In this document: one piece after another, positions 21,175-29,884 of the stretch
Layout: each line of letters begins with the position of its first letter
Numbering within the stretch: position 1 is the stretch's first letter
Origin: Rhodospirillaceae bacterium
GTDB lineage: Bacteria; Pseudomonadota; Alphaproteobacteria; GCA-2731375
DNA length: 36,111 nt
NCBI GenBank assembly: GCA_002731375.1
Contig: PCBT01000090.1
Span: forward strand, 1-36,111
Reading direction: 5' to 3'
Made by a program: the position numbers and the translations under genes
Notes under the pieces: model-generated
Databases searched by the model: none
Told to the model about the DNA's origin: nothing
What the model saw: the letters and a program-made list of their open reading frames with translations, nothing else

Positions 21175-21732
21175 ATGATTGTGAAACGGCTTAGGCCCGT
21201 CATTTCCCTTGTCGCCCTAATCTGGGCGGTTGAGGTGGTGAATTTTTTTCTCGGCCATAGCCTCGTGTCCTGGGGGATATTACCCCGAAGTGTTGGTGGC
21301 CTGGCGGGGATACCGCTCGCGCCCATGCTGCATGGCGGCATTTGGCACACTATATCGAATACGGTTCCCTTGCTTATCCTCGGTAGCCTTACCCTTGCTA
21401 GAGGTCAGGCAAAGTTTTTGGAAACGACTGTGAATATCGTCCTTTTGTCCGGCGTGTTGGTTTGGCTGTTCGCGCGCGGCAGCTATCATGTTGGCGCTTC
21501 GGGATTGGTGTTCGGCTTATTTGGGGCCATATTGGCTCGCGCCGTTATGGAACGCAGCCTATCGTCCATGATTATCGGGATCATAACGGTCATGCTCTAT
21601 GGCGGATTGATATGGGGCATTCTGCCCCTGCGCAACCATGTTTCCTTCGAGAGCCATTTGTTCGGCCTGATCGCCGGTATATTTGTGGTCTGGCTCGAAG
21701 CGAAACTCAACAGATCGAAGCCTGCGTCTTAA
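21175..21732 (+). CDS. Rhomboid-family intramembrane serine protease
   Basis: A 185-residue polytopic membrane protein with about six hydrophobic spans. The catalytic serine motif GASG is at 107-110 (S109), and the partner histidine is H161 in SHLFGLIAG. H58 and N62 (HTISN) match the H-x-x-x-N of the second membrane helix that forms the oxyanion hole. Rhomboids cut transmembrane substrates inside the bilayer. The gene is compact, with only the core domain. It ends exactly where the convergent DUF1190 lipoprotein gene ends (stops at 21732 and 21733). The start ATG has only a weak ribosome site. Confidence 0.88.
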   Translation: MIVKRLRPVISLVALIWAVEVVNFFLGHSLVSWGILPRSVGGLAGIPLAPMLHGGIWHTISNTVPLLILGSLTLARGQAKFLETTVNIVLLSGVLVWLFARGSYHVGASGLVFGLFGAILARAVMERSLSSMIIGIITVMLYGGLIWGILPLRNHVSFESHLFGLIAGIFVVWLEAKLNRSKPAS

Positions 21733-22254
21733 TCAACCCCCGGCACTTCTGCCCGCCGCGCGGGCGCCGAAACCACCGCGCGAGACCGTGCGGGTCCGCG
21801 CGGCTGGGCGTTGGATGGCTGATTTCGCAACCTGGCTCCGTCCGTTTGCAGAGACCGTGCCGATCTGCTGGTTTGACGCCGTATAAAATCTGTTGGGCTG
21901 CGCGCTGGAGCGGTAAAGCGGTTGGCTTGCGATGTAGCCGGCTCCGCCACGCGGCGCTAACATATACCCCATCATGAAAGGCAGCCACACGGAACCGCCT
22001 GATTGGTAACAGCGGTTATATCCGAAATCCGAAAAGCATTGATTTGCCCTGGAATAACGGGGCGCGACTTCGGTATGCAGCTTCTCGGCCTTGGCAAATT
22101 CCGAGCGGCAAACAGTTTCGTCCACCTGGCCGGCTACAATGCAGGCCTCAACGTTGTCGTAGGCCAAAACATCGTCTTCAGCCTCAGCACAGGCAACCAG
22201 GGTCAACGCGGTGACACCGAGGAGGGCAAACTTAAAGGCGTTTGGTCGCTTCAT
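21733..22254 (-). CDS. DUF1190 lipoprotein (YjfM/YgiB-like)
   Basis: A 173-residue protein with a lipoprotein signal: basic MKRPNAFKF, a hydrophobic core and the lipobox LVAC at about residue 22. The mature part has four further Cys and the DNVEACIVAGQVDETVC...AEKLHTEVAPRYS...C segment of DUF1190, the E. coli YgiB/YjfM family, followed by a Tyr/Gly/Arg-rich low-complexity tail. The ATG at 22254 follows GAGGTG; the frame continues 26 codons upstream into the DUF350 gene end. It is the last gene of the minus-strand unit. In E. coli the family is encoded beside a GSP-synthase-like ligase, as in this island. Confidence 0.88.
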   Translation of the reverse strand: MKRPNAFKFALLGVTALTLVACAEAEDDVLAYDNVEACIVAGQVDETVCRSEFAKAEKLHTEVAPRYSRANQCFSDFGYNRCYQSGGSVWLPFMMGYMLAPRGGAGYIASQPLYRSSAQPNRFYTASNQQIGTVSANGRSQVAKSAIQRPAARTRTVSRGGFGARAAGRSAGG

Positions 22255-22271
22255 GCGCGGCACCTCATTCT

Positions 22272-22685
22272 TCAGGTTGTCATGGCGGCGGCATTCAAAA
22301 TACCCCCGACGATCGAACAGGAACCAAGCCAAATCCCCGCAGCCACCTCGCCTTTGTCAATGCGCTCGGAGAGCCGTGGCATGGGCAGGCGAAGAATTAG
22401 ATAGACCAGCACCTGAACGACAAGGGCGACCAATCCCCAAAGCATCATTTCCACAACCGTGACAGAATGGATCATGGTGGAGGCCAGAGGCAAGGCAAAC
22501 CCGACCAGACTGCCGGAAAAAGCCAGTGCGGCGGCTGTCGAGTTTTGCTTGATAAGGGTCAGTTCATTGTGCCGTGTGATACGGGTATAGACGACCACGA
22601 AGATTAGTGTCAGCACCGCTGCGGCAACGAAGAATAGCAAGAACTCAGTCAGGCTCGGCCAAAAAAGGTCAAATTGCGCGTTCAT
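22272..22685 (-). CDS. yjfL: DUF350 membrane protein (YjfL-like)
   Basis: A 137-residue inner-membrane protein with four hydrophobic spans: about 10-31, a second at 45-67 with STAAALAFSGSLVGFALPLAS, a third at 76-97, and one at the C-terminus (GIWLGSCSIVGGILNAAAMT). The AAAxAxxGxxxGFALPLxS segment is the DUF350 core. In E. coli YjfL sits in the yjfIJKLMC cluster. The ribosome site AGGGAGA lies before the ATG and the DUF1190 gene follows 17 bases later. No biochemical role is established for DUF350. Confidence 0.88.
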   Translation of the reverse strand: MNAQFDLFWPSLTEFLLFFVAAAVLTLIFVVVYTRITRHNELTLIKQNSTAAALAFSGSLVGFALPLASTMIHSVTVVEMMLWGLVALVVQVLVYLILRLPMPRLSERIDKGEVAAGIWLGSCSIVGGILNAAAMTT

Positions 22686-22717
22686 TCGAGTCTCCCTATC
22701 AACGGCATGATAACACC

Positions 22718-22734
22718 CGCGCGCATGGCGCGCG
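22718..22734 (-). other. Intercistronic GC hairpin
   Basis: CGCGCGC and GCGCGCG arms enclose an ATG loop between the DUF2491 and DUF350 genes. On the minus strand, the transcript direction, no T-run follows, so read-through with RNA processing or attenuation is more likely than full termination. Confidence 0.4.
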
Positions 22735-22755
22735 ATTTTGTTTCAAATAAATGGT

Positions 22756-23448
22756 TTATATCACGTTTAGGTTTGCAGTTTCGATGTCTACCCCGACCAT
22801 AAGCTCAATGGTGCGTTCCCCTTCGTAGTCTTCGGCGGAAACCAACAGATATTCGTTCTTCTTGTCCGGGCCCAAATTGCGCCCATACAACATGACGGTA
22901 TGGACGATATCGCTGCATTCATCGGATTCGGGGTCTTCATAGACCGATTCTGTAAATATGACCGGTTTCACATTTGAAACGGCGTCGTCGAACCATATAC
23001 GGTCATATTCCGTGCCGTCATCAAGGCGAAAACTCGCCGCGCCAAGTTTACCACCGTCCGATGTCCATTGCGCCCAGGCGCCCTCGCTATCAGGGTAGTA
23101 GCTTTTGTGAGGCACAAACAGAGTTAGCTCTTCAACATGTTCGTCCGACACGCCGCCCACAGTTAAAACCTGGATCACGGCGTCATCACTATTGTAAAAA
23201 CGATGGGCATAAGTGCCGTCGCCCAGATCGATATAACCTTGAGCGACGATCATCATCGTCGTCTCGGGCAGTTCGACGTGAAGGTCGGCCGCGTGCATGC
23301 GCAACGGCAGGGTGTCAATGTCCACGGCGGCGCCGATACGCAGGCGAAACGGAGTTGGAAATTCATCTGCCTCGTCATCATCGGAGAATCTTTCCTTTAG
23401 GTCGCGGACGCCGCTCTTAACCAGAGATTTTATCGTTCTGCCAAACAT
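22756..23448 (-). CDS. yjfK: DUF2491 protein (YjfK-like)
   Basis: A 230-residue soluble acidic protein. It has the DUF2491 pattern: an N-terminal helix, then LPLRMHAADLHVELPETTMMIVAQGYIDLGDGTYAHRFYNSDDAVIQV, and a later EYDRIWFDD block. YjfK is the middle gene of E. coli yjfIJKLMC. Its function is unknown. A GGAGAGG ribosome site precedes the ATG, and the ion channel gene ends 25 bases upstream, so these genes are co-transcribed. No transmembrane span or signal peptide is visible, so it should be cytoplasmic, possibly at the membrane with the PspA homologue. Confidence 0.88.
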   Translation of the reverse strand: MFGRTIKSLVKSGVRDLKERFSDDDEADEFPTPFRLRIGAAVDIDTLPLRMHAADLHVELPETTMMIVAQGYIDLGDGTYAHRFYNSDDAVIQVLTVGGVSDEHVEELTLFVPHKSYYPDSEGAWAQWTSDGGKLGAASFRLDDGTEYDRIWFDDAVSNVKPVIFTESVYEDPESDECSDIVHTVMLYGRNLGPDKKNEYLLVSAEDYEGERTIELMVGVDIETANLNVI

Positions 23449-23472
23449 GTAACCTCTCCAACAACAATTACT

Positions 23473-24537
23473 TCAGGCCAATGCGGGCCAATCAATACGC
23501 GCCGGATCGATACGCTGGGGCGCCATAAAATATAAGGTCATTCCCGGACCGACAGATGCATCCAACGACGCGTTCAATATTAGATCGTCCCCCAAGGTAC
23601 TATTTGCAACGCCAAACAACGTAGCTTCGTGTTTGCTCTTCAACTCCGTGAAGAGCGCCCCATAGGTGACCGGGACGGCATCGTGGGGTACTTGCAGGCT
23701 GAATTGGGTCGGGCCTTCCAAGGTCGATAACAGTTGGCGTTGGACCCGGCTTGACCCAGGATCCTGTGCCGAGCGGACCATCATCTCGATGGAAAGCGAA
23801 ACATTGGCTTCAGCGCGGGAGCAGTGGGCCTTTAGCAGATCGGCAAAACTCTGCTGGTCGAAATACGCAACGATATGAGCCCCCCCATTGACCGCCGCCG
23901 CGCCCAAGGCTGCCGCTAGGGTTTCGTTGTCATCACGTCCAAAGGCGATGACAAATACCGCATTTGCCACGGCGGCGCGTTTTAAAAGATCCGGAGTGTT
24001 TAGGGCAGCAGCGCGCACGAAACGGACCTGATCGGGCATAGGGTTTTCCATGGTTTCGGCGCAGCAAAGGACAATCTCGCGTTTATCGTCGCCCTGTCCG
24101 CCGAGGATATGATCGACCATCCGCTGGGTGCGCACATCATGCCAACCCAGAATGACAACGTGTCCCGACAAATTTTCGTAATTCGCTAATCCACGCAATC
24201 TTTTCCTCCACTTCTCGGAAAACTGCTGCACGATCTTCGCAATGATCGTTGTGAAAAGGGCGATACCGCCGGGCATGACCCAGATTGTTGCGACGACGCG
24301 CCCGGCAGCGGTGGTTGGTGAATAGTCGCCGTATCCGACCGTCGTTGCCGTAGTGGCATAGAAGTACCAAAAAATTTCACCGCTGGCGATTTTCTCACCA
24401 CCGACAAACGCGATCAGGCCCCATGAAGTGGCAAAATGAATAAACGTCATCGTCAGGACCGTGTCCCAACTAAGGCTTGAAATCCGGTTGTATAAACGTC
24501 TTGCGACGCGCGACAATATTAAGTGCATGGCCGGCAT
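23473..24537 (-). CDS. Two-TM potassium channel with RCK/TrkA domain
   Basis: A 354-residue protein. Two membrane helices (about 25-46 and 82-103) flank a pore loop with TVGYGD at residues 66-71, the K+ selectivity filter. From about residue 124 (SGHVVILGWHDVRTQRMVDHIL) it continues as a Rossmann-like RCK/TrkA-N gating domain, and a C-terminal TrkA-C-like part follows. It is the first gene of the minus-strand unit with DUF2491, DUF350 and DUF1190. Such channels with yjf/pspA clusters suggest ion flux across a stressed membrane. The ATG at 24537 or 24528 could be used; both lack a strong ribosome site. Confidence 0.9.
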   Translation of the reverse strand: MPAMHLILSRVARRLYNRISSLSWDTVLTMTFIHFATSWGLIAFVGGEKIASGEIFWYFYATTATTVGYGDYSPTTAAGRVVATIWVMPGGIALFTTIIAKIVQQFSEKWRKRLRGLANYENLSGHVVILGWHDVRTQRMVDHILGGQGDDKREIVLCCAETMENPMPDQVRFVRAAALNTPDLLKRAAVANAVFVIAFGRDDNETLAAALGAAAVNGGAHIVAYFDQQSFADLLKAHCSRAEANVSLSIEMMVRSAQDPGSSRVQRQLLSTLEGPTQFSLQVPHDAVPVTYGALFTELKSKHEATLFGVANSTLGDDLILNASLDASVGPGMTLYFMAPQRIDPARIDWPALA

Positions 24538-24579
24538 CCAACCGCATGTGCCAGTTTTTGCAAATTGCCTCTCAATTCA

Positions 24580-24688
24580 CCAGTCACTGGATTTTCGTTA
24601 ACCTAGTGAGCAGAGCATAGGTCATACTTCTTAGCAAACAAGCGTTTCGGCTATTGCAATTAGTTTTACATGTAACATATTACATGTA
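24580..24688. promoter_or_regulatory. Divergent operator/promoter region of the yjf-like units
   Basis: The gap between the channel gene and yjfI has a perfect inverted repeat with arms TACATGTAA and TTACATGTA around CATA (24667-24688). It lies 23 bases upstream of the yjfI ATG. A TTGCAA (24654-24659) and ATATTA (24677-24682), 17 bases apart, could be -35 and -10 hexamers, which puts the -10 inside the palindrome, a position for repression. A second short palindrome, CCAGT-C-ACTGG, is at 24580-24590, nearer the channel gene. The YjfI-like N-terminus is a candidate binder (inference). Confidence 0.6.
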
Positions 24689-24710
24689 TAGAAACGAGCG
24701 GTGTTGTTTT

Positions 24711-25343
24711 ATGCCAACGAAATCGTCCTATTATCAATCCCGGTACCGCGCCCGTTTGCGGGAAAAAGGCTATGTAAAACGGGAAATTTGGATACCGCCG
24801 GAATATACCAAAGCACTGAAAGACTGTGAAAAGGCGCTACGCATGGGCGTTTCACCTATCATATCGACACCCCCACCGATGACTGCAGCGGAGAGCGAAA
24901 TGAGCAACGACGAAATCTGGACCACGGAAACATTGCATGGGGCGCTGGCGCAATCGGATGCCGCCGCCGAGGATGCAATTAAGGTGGAATTGGTCGCGGG
25001 CATCGACCCCGGGATTCTCATTACCATGACGGAATTCGGCGACCTGCCGCTTCTGATGAGCGTGAGCGGCAGTCAAATCCTGGTCGAAACCTTGCTTTGG
25101 CCCGTTGATGAGGTTGTCGATACGGCGGCTTTCAACGACTTGATCTTGAGGACGCACATGCTGCTGCCATTATCGACATTTGGCATTGGCCAGGGACCCG
25201 ATGGCAAGGACTACTACGAAATGTTCGGCTCGTTAAGTGCCAGTTCGAAATTGACATCCGTCCTATTTGAGATCGAGACCTTGGCCGACAACGCCATGCA
25301 GACGGCCGAGGCCTATCAAACAGAGCTGAAGGTTTCCGCGTGA
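24711..25343 (+). CDS. yjfI: YjfI-like DUF2170 protein with RHH-like N-terminus
   Basis: A 210-residue protein. Residues about 70-205 match DUF2170: KVELVAGIDPGILITMTEFGDLPLLMSVSGSQILVETLLWPVDEV and the LLPLSTFGI segment. Residues 1-46 are extra compared with E. coli YjfI (DUF2170 only, about 130 aa). The pattern SRYRARLREKGYVKREIWIPPEY resembles the basic ribbon-helix-helix-type N-terminus of MazE-like antitoxins (DUF3018: R-RxRLRxxGxRPxxIWVPD). A linker of Pro/Thr joins them. The palindrome just upstream is a natural target, so the protein may be the local regulator (inference). The ATG at 24711 has no strong ribosome site; 24684 is an alternative, but it lies inside the palindrome. Confidence 0.8.
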   Translation: MPTKSSYYQSRYRARLREKGYVKREIWIPPEYTKALKDCEKALRMGVSPIISTPPPMTAAESEMSNDEIWTTETLHGALAQSDAAAEDAIKVELVAGIDPGILITMTEFGDLPLLMSVSGSQILVETLLWPVDEVVDTAAFNDLILRTHMLLPLSTFGIGQGPDGKDYYEMFGSLSASSKLTSVLFEIETLADNAMQTAEAYQTELKVSA

Positions 25344-25394
25344 CCGCCAGCCAGCCAGGCTACATCTGATGCATATGAAAAAGGAGACATCATC

Positions 25395-26087
25395 ATGAGT
25401 ATTTGGGCAAAAGTCGCCACCGCCATCCGGGGTGGGGCCAGCGAAGCCGGCGAGGCGATTGTCGACAATCAGGCCTTGCGCATCCTGGACCAGGAAATCC
25501 GGGACGCCGACAATGGGTTGAGTAAATCAAAAGGCGCGCTGACAGGCATCATCGCCAAGCGAAAATTGGCCGACAAGAAAGTCGGCAGCCTGAAATCGTC
25601 ACTGACGGAATATGATGGCTATGCCATGCAGGCACTGGACAAGGGCGACGATAGTTTGGCCGTGGAAATCGCTGAGAAAATTGCCGGCCTTGAAACAGAA
25701 CTACTAGGCGAGGAAGGCTTGGCAAAGTCCTTTGCCGACAGCGAAGGACAGCTCCGCAAGACGGTCGCACAAACCGAAGCGAACCTGAAACGCCTGAAAC
25801 AACAGGTTGATACGGTCAAGGCGACCGAGGTCGTGCAGAAGTCCCAGGCTGCGGTGGCCGCCCGGCATTCAGGCGTGGGTTCAAGCATGGGCAGCGCGCT
25901 GGAAAGCTTGGAAAGATTAAAGACCAAACAGGCCGAGCGGGCGGCTAAATTCGAAGCGGCCAGTGAACTGGCGGAATCTACCGAGGAAGTCAGCCTGGAC
26001 GCCAAACTGAAAGCCGCCGGCATCGTTGACGGTGGCGCCAGCGGCGGAGATGTGTTGGCCCGATTAAAGGCGAAGCGTGGCGGTTAG
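25395..26087 (+). CDS. yjfJ: PspA/IM30-family protein (YjfJ-like)
   Basis: A 230-residue, almost all-helical protein with long coiled-coil heptads (about 25-150) and the PspA-like AIRGGASEAGEAIVDNQALRILDQEIRDADNGL start. The C-terminal ESLERLKTKQAERAAKFEAASEL and the ending DVLARLKAKRGG match E. coli YjfJ closely. PspA/IM30 proteins oligomerise on the inner face of the cytoplasmic membrane and protect it from leakage. An AAGGAG ribosome site precedes the ATG. It is the second gene after yjfI and the key evidence that this cluster acts at the membrane. Confidence 0.9.
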   Translation: MSIWAKVATAIRGGASEAGEAIVDNQALRILDQEIRDADNGLSKSKGALTGIIAKRKLADKKVGSLKSSLTEYDGYAMQALDKGDDSLAVEIAEKIAGLETELLGEEGLAKSFADSEGQLRKTVAQTEANLKRLKQQVDTVKATEVVQKSQAAVAARHSGVGSSMGSALESLERLKTKQAERAAKFEAASELAESTEEVSLDAKLKAAGIVDGGASGGDVLARLKAKRGG

Positions 26088-26145
26088 AGAACCCGGGATC
26101 GGCGGGCCAGCCCCGCTTCGCCCTGACACCGAAAAAGATCGCAGA

Positions 26146-27321
26146 ATGCATCGTGTCCCAGTCATGCAACGGCCCGGTCTGGCGGAAACAGCCCGAGCCC
26201 ATGGTTATGAGCACCATACCCACGGCGGGGTGCCCTATTGGGAAGAAACCGCATACTATCGCTTCACCCTGAAGCAAATCGAGGACGACTTTGAAAGGCC
26301 GGCGACAGAAATCGACGGCATGTGCTTCGAACTGCTAGACCAATCCCTCCGCGACGAAACGGTCTATCAACGATTGTGCATTCCCGAGGCCTATTGGGAC
26401 TATGTCGCCAACAGTTGGCGGCAGCGGGACAAGGATCTCTATGGCCGGATGGATTTTTCCTATGACGGGACCGCCCCCGCCAAACTGTTGGAATACAACG
26501 CCGATACCCCCACCACCCTATACGAATCGTCGGTCTTTCAATGGCTCTGGCTTGAAGACGCCAAGGCGGCCGGCCTCATACCTCAGAGCAGCGATCAAGC
26601 CGCGGAAATCCATGAGCACCTGGTCTCGGCCTTCGAGAATACGAGGACCGAAGGGTTATTGCACCTCGCCTGTATGCGCGACATGGAAGATGACCGCGAA
26701 ACCGTCAAATATTTGGAGGAATGCGCCCAGGAGGCCGGCCTGAAAACGGATTTTCTGGCCATGCGCGACATTGGTATTGATAAGGACGGCCTTTTTACGG
26801 ACCTGGAAGACCGGGTCATCGCTGATCTATTCAAACTCTACCCCTGGGAATGGATCATGGCGGAGGAGTTCGGCCGTTATCTGACGACCTCGGGTGTGCG
26901 GTTTCTTGAACCACCCTGGAAGGCGGTGCTGTCCAATAAAGGCCTGCTGCCGCTGTTGTGGGAGAAATTTGAAGGTCATCCATATTTATTACCAGCCTAT
27001 TTCGAGGGTGATGCCAAGGTGGCCAATCTTACCGGCGACTACGTCCGAAAGCCCCTATTGTCGCGCCAGGGTGCCAATATCGAAATTGTGCGGCGCGGGA
27101 AAACGGCGGACCGCACCAAACATGTCCATAGCGAGGGAGACTATGGCGGCGAGGGTCATATCGTGCAGGCCTTTCATCCACTACCCGCCTTCGATGGAAA
27201 ATATCCCGTAATGGGATGCTGGATGGTTGCGGGGCAACCCGCCGGCATTTCTATTCGAGAGGGCGAAACTTTGATTACGAACGGCGAGGCAAATTCTATC
27301 CCACATGTTATTCTGGACTAG
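26146..27321 (+). CDS. Glutathionylspermidine synthase-like ATP-grasp ligase (YgiC/YjfC-like)
   Basis: A 391-residue protein that aligns by eye along its whole length with the C-terminal synthetase half of glutathionylspermidine synthase and with E. coli YgiC/YjfC. Marks are SLYGRMDFSYDG, KLLEYNADTPTTLYESSVFQW (substrate and metal loop), KLYPWEW, WKAVLSNKGLLPLLWE, YVRKPLLSRQGANI (ATP lysine) and the end GISIREGETLITN. The amidase half of the bifunctional enzyme is absent, as in YgiC/YjfC. The ATG at 26146 matches the family start; the frame continues upstream into the yjfJ end. In E. coli these genes are suspected ligases joining an amine to a peptide or protein, with the substrate unknown. 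The decarboxylase gene follows after 27 bases. Confidence 0.88.
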   Translation: MHRVPVMQRPGLAETARAHGYEHHTHGGVPYWEETAYYRFTLKQIEDDFERPATEIDGMCFELLDQSLRDETVYQRLCIPEAYWDYVANSWRQRDKDLYGRMDFSYDGTAPAKLLEYNADTPTTLYESSVFQWLWLEDAKAAGLIPQSSDQAAEIHEHLVSAFENTRTEGLLHLACMRDMEDDRETVKYLEECAQEAGLKTDFLAMRDIGIDKDGLFTDLEDRVIADLFKLYPWEWIMAEEFGRYLTTSGVRFLEPPWKAVLSNKGLLPLLWEKFEGHPYLLPAYFEGDAKVANLTGDYVRKPLLSRQGANIEIVRRGKTADRTKHVHSEGDYGGEGHIVQAFHPLPAFDGKYPVMGCWMVAGQPAGISIREGETLITNGEANSIPHVILD

Positions 27322-27348
27322 TGATGAATTCTGCAAGGGGCGGGAAAT

Positions 27349-28512
27349 ATGACCGGGGCCAATGAACTTGAAACGCCGGCTTTCGTGACTGACGAGAAGG
27401 TTTTGCAAAAAGACCTAGCATTGCTGCGCGATGTGGCGGATCAAGCATCATGTAAACTGCTCTATTCGCCCAAAGCCAGTGTCCTTTCGACGGTCCTGCA
27501 AAATATTGCGGGACAGGTGGATGGGTTCGCCTGCAGCTCACCCTATGAACTTCGGCTACTGGACCAGCTACGCAACGGCAGGCAGTCATTGCATTTGGTC
27601 AGTCCGTTGATCAAGTTGGAAACATTGGCGGCATTCGGTGGGCGTCTCGACTATCTCACCGTAAATTCTTTGTCCCAATGGGAATTCGTGCGCGCCTCCG
27701 TTTCGCCCAACACCCATGTCGGTCTCCGGGTGAACCCACAGCTTTCCTTCATCCGCGATGCCCGCTACGATCCCTGCCGGCACCAATCAAAGCTGGGGGT
27801 GCCCGCAAGCAAATTGGCCGGTCTCGCAGCCACGGGCAGGACGGTACTGCGCGGTATCACGGGCCTTCATTTTCATAACAATTGTGAAGGCACGGACTTC
27901 GCCAATCTTCTTGCCACCGCTCGACATATCGAAAATGTCATCCCGGAACTTTTACATCAGGTCGAGTGGATCAATATTGGCGGCGGCTATCTGTTTGACC
28001 AGACAAGCAACTACACTGATTTCCAAGCGGCCGTGGCCATCTTCCGCGAAGTCTTCGGTCTTGAGGTGTTCATGGAGCCGGGTGCGGCGGCGGTGCGCCG
28101 CAGCGGCACTATCGAAGCGACGGTGCATGATATTTTCAACAGCGACAATAGCCAGATAGCCATCCTGGACACCACGGTCAATCACATGCCGGAAGTCTTT
28201 GAGTTCCAGTTCGAACCCGATGTCCTGGGGCACATTGACGGCGGCCTCCATTCCTACACATTGGCGGGATGCACATGTATGGCAGGCGATGTGTTCGGCC
28301 AGTATTCATTCGACAAGCCTTTGACGATTGGCGCGCGGCTTAAATTCCTCAACATGGGCGCCTATACTATGTCAAAGGCCCACAGGTTCAATGGCGTTGC
28401 CTTGCCGACCGTCTACGGCTGTCAGCCGAATGGTTCGCTGGAGAAAGTCGAGGCCGATAGCTTCGATGAATTCGTCCGGCATAAGGGGAGTTTCCACGTT
28501 GCAGTTGCATGA
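27349..28512 (+). CDS. nspC: Carboxynorspermidine-decarboxylase-like PLP enzyme
   Basis: A 387-residue fold-III PLP decarboxylase. CKLLYSPKAS places the Schiff-base lysine at K42; GLHFHNNCE (172-180) holds the ring-stacking His; GGGYL (211-215) and EPGAA (243-247) bind phosphate and PLP. GCTCMAGDVFGQYSF supplies the catalytic cysteine C310 on the other subunit, and GAYTMSKAHRFNG closes the site. These are the marks of carboxynorspermidine/carboxyspermidine decarboxylase, which makes norspermidine or spermidine. A carboxy(nor)spermidine dehydrogenase, its usual partner, is not in the window. The substrate could therefore be imported or made elsewhere, or differ. The ligase precedes it and DUF3326 follows. 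Confidence 0.85.
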   Translation: MTGANELETPAFVTDEKVLQKDLALLRDVADQASCKLLYSPKASVLSTVLQNIAGQVDGFACSSPYELRLLDQLRNGRQSLHLVSPLIKLETLAAFGGRLDYLTVNSLSQWEFVRASVSPNTHVGLRVNPQLSFIRDARYDPCRHQSKLGVPASKLAGLAATGRTVLRGITGLHFHNNCEGTDFANLLATARHIENVIPELLHQVEWINIGGGYLFDQTSNYTDFQAAVAIFREVFGLEVFMEPGAAAVRRSGTIEATVHDIFNSDNSQIAILDTTVNHMPEVFEFQFEPDVLGHIDGGLHSYTLAGCTCMAGDVFGQYSFDKPLTIGARLKFLNMGAYTMSKAHRFNGVALPTVYGCQPNGSLEKVEADSFDEFVRHKGSFHVAVA

Positions 28513-29884
28513 AAAGTCAATCACCCTTCCCAGCTCACCCAATCATCGTGGGCTCATTCAGCACTTCGAATCTGCCCTGCGCCATGGCTACGCCGCTGGC
28601 GCAACGCCGCTTTACCCCGGCGCAGCAGACATCCCTGTACGGTTGGCCGTAACCTCGTTTGATGGCAGCGCATACTCCTGCGAGATCGGTTATCTGACCG
28701 GCGCGGATCATAGCCTCGCCGAGGGCCTTCAATCCATATTCGCATTCAAACAAAGAAATGGCATAAACGCTGAAGAATTCAACGCGGTCTATATCGTACC
28801 TACCGGGATCGGCGCCGAGGTTGGCGGCCATGCGGGCGATGCCAGCCCGGCGGCGCAGCTATTGGCGTCTTGCTGTGATCGTCTGATTACCCACCCAAAC
28901 GTGGTCAACGCATCCGACATGAACGAGATGCCGGCCAACGCCGAATATGTGGAAGGCAGCGTTCTCTGCCGCCTGTTGATGGGCACCGCCGGACTGGACG
29001 CGGTGCGGGCCAACCGTGTTCTGGTGGTGTTTGATAGCCAGACGGACGGGATGATTGAAAACCTGGTCTTGAACACGGTGGAATCCGCCCGCAGCACATA
29101 TGGGCTTGATTGTGCTGGTATCTATAAAATGGCCCCCCCGCTTGAGCTAACGGCCTTATCCTCGCCGGCCGGGAGGGCCGTCGGTTCGGGGCGGAATATC
29201 CATAAACTTTTTGATTTGCTCAGAGAGACGGCTGGCGACTATGACGCAGTTGCCATCTCCAGCCTCATTGGAGTGCCCGACGGCTTTCACGAAAAATATT
29301 TCAACAGTGCGGGCAGCATGATCAATCCCTGGGGCGGCGTCGAAGCCATGTTGACCCATGCCGTTTCCCATTATTTCAACGTGCCATCAGCCCATGCACC
29401 GATGATAGAATCCCGTGAGATCTTGAACGAAGACTCCGGCCGGGTCGATCCGCGCATGGCAGCGGAGGCCATTTCATCATCGTTTTTTCAATGCGTCCTG
29501 AAAGGCTTGAAACAGTCCCCTCGAATAGTAACGGATCCGAACCAGATGACCGCAGGCGGCGTCCTAACCGCCCGGGATATATCTTGCCTGATAATACCGG
29601 AGGGATGTATCGGCTTGCCCACCCTCGGTGCCCTTGAGCAGGGAATCACGGTCATAGCGGTGCGCGAGGGCAGCGGCCTTACGGCGGGGGAGTTGAGCCA
29701 CTTGCCGTGGCGGGACAATCAGTTTTTCGTTGCTGAAAACTATTGGGAGGCAGCCGGTGTATTGAGCGCGCTACGGGCCGGCATCGCGCCAAACTCAATC
29801 CGGCGTCCATTTCCGAAGCTAGAGGTCAAAACCTGGCGAGATGCCGACCCGCTGAATGCAACCATTCCCCGCCGCCGGCAATAG
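28499..29884 (+). CDS. DUF3326 protein with N-terminal extension
   Basis: A 461-residue protein. From about residue 97 it matches DUF3326: VYIVPTGIGAEVGGHAGDASPAAQLLASCCDRLITHPNVVN, then EYVEGSVLCRLLMG, GVEAMLTHAVSHYFNVPSAHAPM and AEAISSSFFQCVLKGL, ending VIPEGCIGLPTLGALEQGITVIAV. DUF3326 proteins are widespread in cyanobacteria and plants with no known reaction. Here about 95 residues precede the domain. The frame starts inside the decarboxylase gene; a TTG at 28499 with AAGGGGAG 9 bases upstream is the best start and overlaps the decarboxylase by 14 bases, so the two are translationally coupled. The fixed order suggests it acts next in the pathway. Confidence 0.82.
   Translation: MQLHEKSITLPSSPNHRGLIQHFESALRHGYAAGATPLYPGAADIPVRLAVTSFDGSAYSCEIGYLTGADHSLAEGLQSIFAFKQRNGINAEEFNAVYIVPTGIGAEVGGHAGDASPAAQLLASCCDRLITHPNVVNASDMNEMPANAEYVEGSVLCRLLMGTAGLDAVRANRVLVVFDSQTDGMIENLVLNTVESARSTYGLDCAGIYKMAPPLELTALSSPAGRAVGSGRNIHKLFDLLRETAGDYDAVAISSLIGVPDGFHEKYFNSAGSMINPWGGVEAMLTHAVSHYFNVPSAHAPMIESREILNEDSGRVDPRMAAEAISSSFFQCVLKGLKQSPRIVTDPNQMTAGGVLTARDISCLIIPEGCIGLPTLGALEQGITVIAVREGSGLTAGELSHLPWRDNQFFVAENYWEAAGVLSALRAGIAPNSIRRPFPKLEVKTWRDADPLNATIPRRRQ

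Follow-up and report, generated by a model that had tools for sequence, protein, structure and literature searches.

A decarboxylase-DUF3326 gene pair with exchangeable decarboxylases as a candidate amine-supplying cassette of a PspA-DUF2170/ligase locus

What do a decarboxylase gene and a DUF3326 gene contribute to a locus that encodes a PspA-like protein and an acid-amine ligase? The question arises from a contig of a Rhodospirillaceae bacterium (assembly GCA_002731375.1, contig PCBT01000090.1), whose entire 36,111 nucleotides (nt) are called the window here. The genome is a draft of 115 contigs that is 96% complete. A preliminary description, made from the letters of the window alone, had listed nine genes in two divergent units between positions 21733 and 29884. 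With open reading frame (ORF) calling and Pfam and NCBIfam scans, all nine were found at their positions and on their strands, in the order claimed, and each matched its own Pfam family. Seven of them form a module that is already described for DUF2170-PspA operons. The new part consists of the last two plus-strand genes, one for an NspC-like decarboxylase of the alanine-racemase fold that uses pyridoxal phosphate (PLP) (27349–28512; Orn_Arg_deC; TIGR01047 E 4e-77) and one for a DUF3326 protein (28466–29884; PF11805 E 2e-85). We are nearly certain that these two are functionally paired. That they constitute a portable cassette, added to the PspA-DUF2170/ligase module, which is of a known membrane-stress type, and making an amine for the ligase, is a proposal that we hold at the balance between likely and unlikely.

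The pairing was assessed by a profile scan of genome contigs with DUF3326, which gave 407 relatives. A decarboxylase gene was adjacent and on the same strand in 77 of the 84 cellular DUF3326 loci, a count to be read with the caution that only the best-scoring 80 of the 407 were kept with their flanks, that some loci are near-duplicates and that many come from metagenome-assembled genomes (MAGs), the names of which may be wrong. The script criterion recognised 76 of these decarboxylases; the one in L095 was hidden from the script by an over-long ORF and was found by eye. Four of the remaining seven loci are truncated by the contig end. The median spacing between decarboxylase and DUF3326 was −13 nt, that is, the genes overlap. 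In the window, the likely ATG of DUF3326 precedes the stop of the NspC-like gene, so that the two overlap by 47 nt, and the arrangement is similar in L016 and L017. The titles of the loci name Alphaproteobacteria, Chloroflexi, Planctomycetota, Bacteroidetes, Neomarinimicrobiota, Dadabacteria, Nitrospinae, Verrucomicrobia and Chlamydiae.

The prevalence of DUF3326 was sampled within Pseudomonadota at the level of the class (385 genomes) and of the phylum (398 genomes). It was found in 10 genomes of the class and in two of the phylum, one of these being a fragment. Since DUF3326 is that rare, chance adjacency to a decarboxylase gene is negligible. The genomes G027 and G372 hold the same locus as the window, in G372 on a short contig. 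The order DUF350-DUF1190-ligase-small gene-DUF3326 was seen in G210, G300 and G104, the small gene and DUF3326 by themselves in G208, and NspC-like-DUF3326 in G378. The small gene encodes a SpeD-like pyruvoyl decarboxylase (PF02675). G079 and G087, which have the most divergent DUF3326 of the class matches, show no decarboxylase partner. As a control, we analysed 20 loci of glutathionylspermidine (GSP) synthetase-type ligases without a linked DUF3326, 19 of which come from genomes of the class that have no DUF3326. These loci carry DUF350 and/or DUF1190, and none of the 20 has a decarboxylase gene. We conclude from this control that the decarboxylase travels with DUF3326 and not with the ligase.

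The preliminary description had considered that the neighbourhood might be a chance product of island assembly. The patchy occurrence of the cluster, with three sampled genomes of the same genus lacking DUF3326, would agree with this. However, the unit is conserved in MAG genomes across families, its genes stay together even where their order is rearranged (L022), and the linkage arose repeatedly and independently. The closest locus, L020 from an alphaproteobacterial MAG, has a DUF3326 with 91% identity, and since several further alphaproteobacterial MAGs also contain the complete locus, it is no local accident. The neighbourhood check thus found the same set, NspC-like and DUF3326 beside yjfJ and yjfC homologues, in other genomes. 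With the recurrent locus, the census and the decarboxylase-free control loci, chance assembly was rejected and is extremely improbable.

The decarboxylase next to DUF3326 is not always of the same kind. The partner slot holds non-homologous enzymes, namely the PLP-dependent NspC-like type, the pyruvoyl SpeD-like type and, in phages, a phosphatidylserine (PS)-decarboxylase-like type. In L062 the ten-gene locus is complete, with a SpeD-like gene replacing the NspC-like gene, and L084 has the short DUF350-DUF1190-ligase module with an NspC-like gene where a SpeD-like gene is usual. At least 13 changes of partner type were counted on a DUF3326 tree with 109 rows. In the tree of the 82 cellular rows there are at least 8 partner changes, as compared to 22–32 with shuffled labels. 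A single clade of all NspC-type loci was rejected (p-AU, approximately unbiased test, 0.0025), where the trees are quick trees and the NspC group was named after a tree had been seen. There is some agreement between partner type and lineage, and yet the type has switched repeatedly. The GSP-ligase context changes 11 times on the cellular tree, and the window clade, L062, L079, L084, L036 and the clade of SpeD-like loci with the short module lie apart, showing that the association with GSP-ligase loci was gained or lost several times. A single slot in which pyruvoyl and PLP decarboxylases take each other's place is new. That one fold can be replaced by another in the same slot is comparative evidence of unusual strength that the reaction is shared, and the recurrent pair suggests a metabolic step that has gone unrecognised.

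Which substrate the decarboxylases might share was investigated from their catalytic residues. In the NspC-like family Lys42, His176, the GGG at 211–213, Glu243 and the CxxxD motif (Cys310/Asp314) are invariant across 23 aligned members. The window protein has the PLP lysine, the GGG loop and CxxxD of the alanine-racemase-fold decarboxylases for basic amino acids and matches solved decarboxylases. Its label in the preliminary description, NspC-like or carboxynorspermidine-type, holds for the fold but is not supported in the strict sense of NspC. The protein scored 259 bits with TIGR01047, 150 bits short of the cut-off of 409, and SpeD-like enzymes occupy the same slot elsewhere. The search of the 115-contig draft for carboxynorspermidine dehydrogenase returned only one PF03435 match, an NDUFA9-like protein of 332 amino acids (aa). 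The genome yielded neither a spermidine synthase nor, within the alanine-racemase and aminotransferase folds, a further ornithine decarboxylase; its second alanine-racemase-fold gene (L231) is LysA-like and stands beside argH. A true NspC working in a norspermidine/spermidine pathway was therefore rejected. As the protein stays below the TIGR01047 cut-off and no dehydrogenase partner was found, it is probably not a carboxynorspermidine decarboxylase.

The SpeD-like proteins retain the pyruvoyl triad Ser63/His68/Cys83, and the two that were scanned are under the TIGR03330 cut-off. According to PMC10407285, an invariant Pro marks the true S-adenosylmethionine (AdoMet) decarboxylases, and Gln, Thr, Phe and Tyr mark the pyruvoyl ornithine decarboxylases SpeDC. 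In all 43 of 43 cellular SpeD-like proteins the Pro is replaced by Asp or Glu, which sets them apart from true AdoMet decarboxylases. Gln was present in 36 of the 43, Thr and Tyr in 43 each; to locate the Phe, the published logo would be required. Phage SpeD homologues that were assayed are described in PMC9992855 as ornithine or arginine decarboxylases. When a SpeD-like protein was compared to the PDB, the single-sequence search gave only spurious antibody matches and the profile search gave none. Taken together, a basic amino acid would be the most economical common substrate, judged by these residues and the phage assays.

The DUF3326 protein is the constant member of the pair. In an alignment of 58 sequences at about 50% identity there are about 60 invariant columns, many of them polar or charged, and the conserved motifs include PTGIGxxxGGHxGDA and HPNVVNASDxNE. 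Its fold was searched against the PDB with a sequence profile and two AlphaFold models (predicted local distance difference test, pLDDT, 84.5, and 92.6 for the core model), and no match at E <= 1e-3 was obtained with any of the three, nor with the first model against viral structures. Weak matches to lumazine synthase, HAD phosphatase and transcarbamylase lay above E 1e-3 and were not used. The literature search returned DUF3326 only in a cyanobacterial ferredoxin cluster listing and in a plant transcriptome study. The link to amino-acid decarboxylases provides a first testable hypothesis for it. DUF3326 is probably an enzyme. It could instead regulate or sense the decarboxylase or the amine, as it stays constant with several unrelated decarboxylase folds and no known enzyme fold was detected. 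We consider this very improbable, because the invariant columns resemble an active site and because, in a regulator of unrelated enzymes, adaptation to the surface of each would be expected.

If the cassette makes an amine for the ligase, the decarboxylase would take the carboxyl group off a basic amino acid, for which ornithine, arginine or a closely related derivative is most likely. DUF3326 would use the same metabolite, in the simplest case the amine product, and the ligase would join the resulting amine to a peptide or another acid under the control of the envelope-stress genes. The preliminary description had suggested DUF3326 as a possible next step. This is only one of two possible orders. 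In the reverse order, DUF3326 would first produce an uncommon amino acid, such as a modified ornithine or a carboxylated polyamine, which would then lose its carboxyl group to the decarboxylase, and the amine would still go to the ligase. There is a precedent in polyamine synthesis, where carboxynorspermidine dehydrogenase makes a carboxylated polyamine that is then decarboxylated by NspC. The known substrate of the NspC family is of this kind and the usual dehydrogenase was not found in the genome. A special substrate would also explain why each decarboxylase is tied to DUF3326 and why divergent subfamilies are used, which score under the cut-offs of TIGR01047 and TIGR03330. However, the assayed SpeD homologues of phages accept plain ornithine or arginine (PMC9992855) and the DUF3326 fold gives no pointer to a dehydrogenase or a ligase, and we regard the reverse order as rather unlikely.

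Beyond what the preliminary description had noted, decarboxylase and DUF3326 form a self-contained pair, which occurs in phages and in operons of the Septu type, an anti-phage defence system, with no ligase present. In some 14 cellular loci from distant phyla (L038, L043, L053, L057, L060, L066, L067, L069, L070, L077, L078, L085, L086 and L096), genes for PtuA-like and/or PtuB-like proteins precede the pair with operon-like spacing, the decarboxylase being SpeD-like or NspC-like. L053 has the ATPase only, and L038, a short contig, has PtuB only. With the PADLOC profiles, L043 and L057 gave PtuA1 at E 1e-61 and PtuB1 at E 1e-45 or better, and L038 gave PtuB1 at E 6e-52. The PtuA ATPase and the PtuB HNH protein, which define Septu when they are side by side, were found so in L043 and L057; the other loci were assigned by clustering. 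It is possible that PtuA, PtuB, decarboxylase and DUF3326 make up a four-gene defence operon. Among the papers searched, none names Septu, PtuA and a decarboxylase together.

From IMG/VR, just over 70 distinct viral contigs that carry DUF3326 were retrieved in two scans (L102–L165 and L166–L229). Several have portal or terminase genes nearby and are real phages, and some are large (L105, 241 kb). In most of them a SpeD-like gene is beside DUF3326 or close by. In seven contigs a PS-decarboxylase-family gene, the third decarboxylase fold, stands beside DUF3326 (L104:7178-7897, L107:11195-11989, L108:11163-11948, L109:11219-12037, L114:11184-11978, L115:11173-11973 and L116:9000-9860). L109 is a viral contig of 362 kb, and in L116 an agmatinase-family gene accompanies the two, which fits with amine chemistry. 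A gene of the ornithine cyclodeaminase (OCD)/mu-crystallin family takes the slot in L106:3939-4865, L159:4859-5788 and L164:3911-4840; the proteins of L159 and L164 are near-identical, so that the three loci represent two distinct sequences. The DUF3326 of the viral contig L119 matched no PHROGs family, and the plasmid and named-phage collections gave no DUF3326 match. That the pair occurs in Septu-type operons and in phages suggests a so far undescribed part for amine chemistry in the conflict of bacteria with phages.

Two further arrangements were seen in the viral contigs. DUF3326 had no recognised partner in L134 (350 kb), L163 (548 kb) and L113 (143 kb), and in L160:5467-7320 the SpeD-like domain ends a 617-aa protein directly before DUF3326.

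Several observations weigh against an amine-making cassette that serves the ligase. No decarboxylase was seen in L018, L019 and L093, and the OCD-family partner of three phage loci is not a decarboxylase. Of the four residues diagnostic for the ornithine decarboxylases of SpeD type, just three could be located. Many pairs lack a ligase in their vicinity, as in the bare, Septu-type and phage loci. In G378, the NspC-DUF3326 pair (L014, G378:C14) and the ligase module (L253, G378:C18) are on separate contigs. From the ligase-less pairs and the separation in G378 it follows that feeding the ligase is not the sole role of the cassette. These two observations also speak for an independent unit that supplies polyamines or consumes ornithine and stands beside the ligase through a shared usefulness in stress, with no common product. 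Without another ornithine decarboxylase of the two PLP folds or a spermidine synthase in the genome, such a pair could supply putrescine. The repeated joining of the pair to GSP-ligase loci, with the 11 context changes on the cellular tree, argues against independence, as does the enrichment of the GSP ligase in genomes with DUF3326, where it occurs in 7 of 10 as compared to 64 of 375 others (Fisher p 4e-4). We consider an independent unit unlikely. The proposal of an amine-making cassette can be widened to a horizontally moving two-gene system, with a new enzyme fold and interchangeable decarboxylases, whose one amine-containing product serves the ligase of the PspA locus, the PtuAB operons and phages. 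This is quite possible in our judgement, if slightly short of probable. The decarboxylase-DUF3326 cassette appears to be undescribed so far.

The other genes of the window locus were mapped as follows. On the minus strand are a DUF1190 lipoprotein (YjfM-like; 21733–22254; PF06693 E 5e-34), with the lipobox LVAC seen in the sequence and a predicted start, a DUF350 membrane protein (YjfL-like; 22272–22685; PF03994 E 1e-36), a DUF2491 protein (YjfK-like; 22756–23448; PF10679 E 1e-50) and a K+ channel (23473–24537; PF07885 E 1.5e-11). The filter motif TVGYGD of the channel is seen directly, and its RCK-like C-terminal domain is a weak TrkA_N match (PF02254 E 2e-4), the sole family below the Pfam cut-off. 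On the plus strand, DUF2170 (YjfI/BacA-like; 24711–25343; PF09938 E 2e-47) is followed by a PspA/IM30 protein (YjfJ/BacB-like; 25395–26087; PF04012, PspA_IM30, E 4e-47), the single PspA match in its genome, and by the ATP-grasp ligase (GSP_synth; 26146–27321; PF03738 E 2e-135). The likely starts of DUF1190 (22254), DUF2170 (24711), the ligase (26146) and DUF3326 (28466) were revised by comparison with homologues. A tenth, earlier unlisted member is the gene for a rhomboid intramembrane protease on the plus strand (21175–21732; PF01694 E 4e-22; GxSG motif). It belongs to the locus because it adjoins DUF1190 in about ten related loci (L017, L020, L021, L022, L024, L026, L030, L032, L062 and L079). 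An Rfam scan of the window gave no match.

In front of DUF2170 lies the operator-like sequence TACATGTAACATATTACATGTA (24667–24688), a palindrome of 22 base pairs (bp) with 9-bp arms, about 22 nt before the start of the gene. It is the single match in the window, where none is expected, and the single site in the genome. Exact or degenerate copies precede DUF2170 in related loci, including L020–L023 and the SpeD-type L062. The bac operon is reported to be under a negative effect of its own DUF2170 protein, BacA (PMC10948618), and it is a reasonable suggestion by analogy that DUF2170 is an autorepressor, which would probably repress the plus-strand operon through this palindrome. The same paper proposes a sigma-54 site for the bac operon; in the window, matches to such a site were no commoner than by chance and none was upstream of DUF2170.

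Other neighbours were observed next to the pair. In five loci from Chloroflexi (L074, L058, L075, L082 and L098), the NspC-like gene and DUF3326 are near a SecA-like protein and a protein of about 470 aa without a Pfam match, some of them also with a double-domain DUF350. A protein of about 400 aa without a significant Pfam match is encoded directly upstream of the decarboxylase in L055:58-1284, L059:8179-9402, L068:7712-8794 and L090:3-1193, which come from different phyla.

How does the locus compare to known systems? The window enzyme shares with NspC (9eaf, 3n29, 36gy) the alanine-racemase fold with intact PLP lysine and CxxxD, whereas it belongs to a separate subfamily under the curated cut-off and has DUF3326 rather than a dehydrogenase as its partner. 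The SpeD-like partners resemble SpeDC and SpeDA in the pyruvoyl triad and carry Thr, Tyr and mostly Gln of the ornithine-type residues; an association with DUF3326 is not mentioned for these in the accessible parts of PMC10407285 and PMC9992855. In the bac operon (bacA-F) of Pseudomonas aeruginosa, BacA (DUF2170) and BacB (PspA-like) are encoded by the first genes, as described in the accessible text of PMC10948618, where the decarboxylase-DUF3326 pair does not appear. The window has the same two genes at the operon head but differs in that no sigma-54 site stands out, and its DUF2170 protein scored 243 bits with the BacA profile NF050185 (cut-off 300).

The predicted ligase has YjfC (7uk6, E 2e-119) and YgiC (7uk8) as its best solved relatives by phmmer. 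It resembles them over the full length of GSP_synth (PF03738) and is of the same ATP-grasp family without an amidase domain, which makes it YjfC/YgiC-type. To our knowledge, no decarboxylase-DUF3326 pair has been reported beside yjfC or ygiC of Escherichia coli. YjfC and YgiC are called peptidylpolyamine synthetases in the accessible text of PMC12568646, which cites Pederick et al. (2023), and by the title of that work are peptide-spermidine ligases. The earlier idea that the added decarboxylase might supply an amine donor fits with these relatives.

The core that had been claimed for the locus, resembling yjfIJKLMC of E. coli, was borne out and matches the 'third group' of Ravi et al. (2024, PMC11237479). 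In its accessible text, this DUF2170-PspA operon comprises a GSP-synthetase-like ATP-grasp ligase, a K+ channel, DUF350, DUF1190 and DUF2491; a CesT/Tir fold is reported for the DUF2170 family, so that group-3 operons are CesT/Tir(DUF2170)-PspA. The window holds all these with the DUF2170-PspA dyad in one locus, including the half with the channel, DUF2491, DUF350 and DUF1190. It differs by the NspC-like decarboxylase, DUF3326 and the rhomboid, which are not mentioned for group 3 in that text. Variants with an AdoMet decarboxylase and a polyamine oxidase are described there, and a link to polyamines was suspected. For the way in which PspA-ligase modules come by their amine, a question raised when this link was proposed, the decarboxylase-DUF3326 cassette offers a first testable hypothesis.

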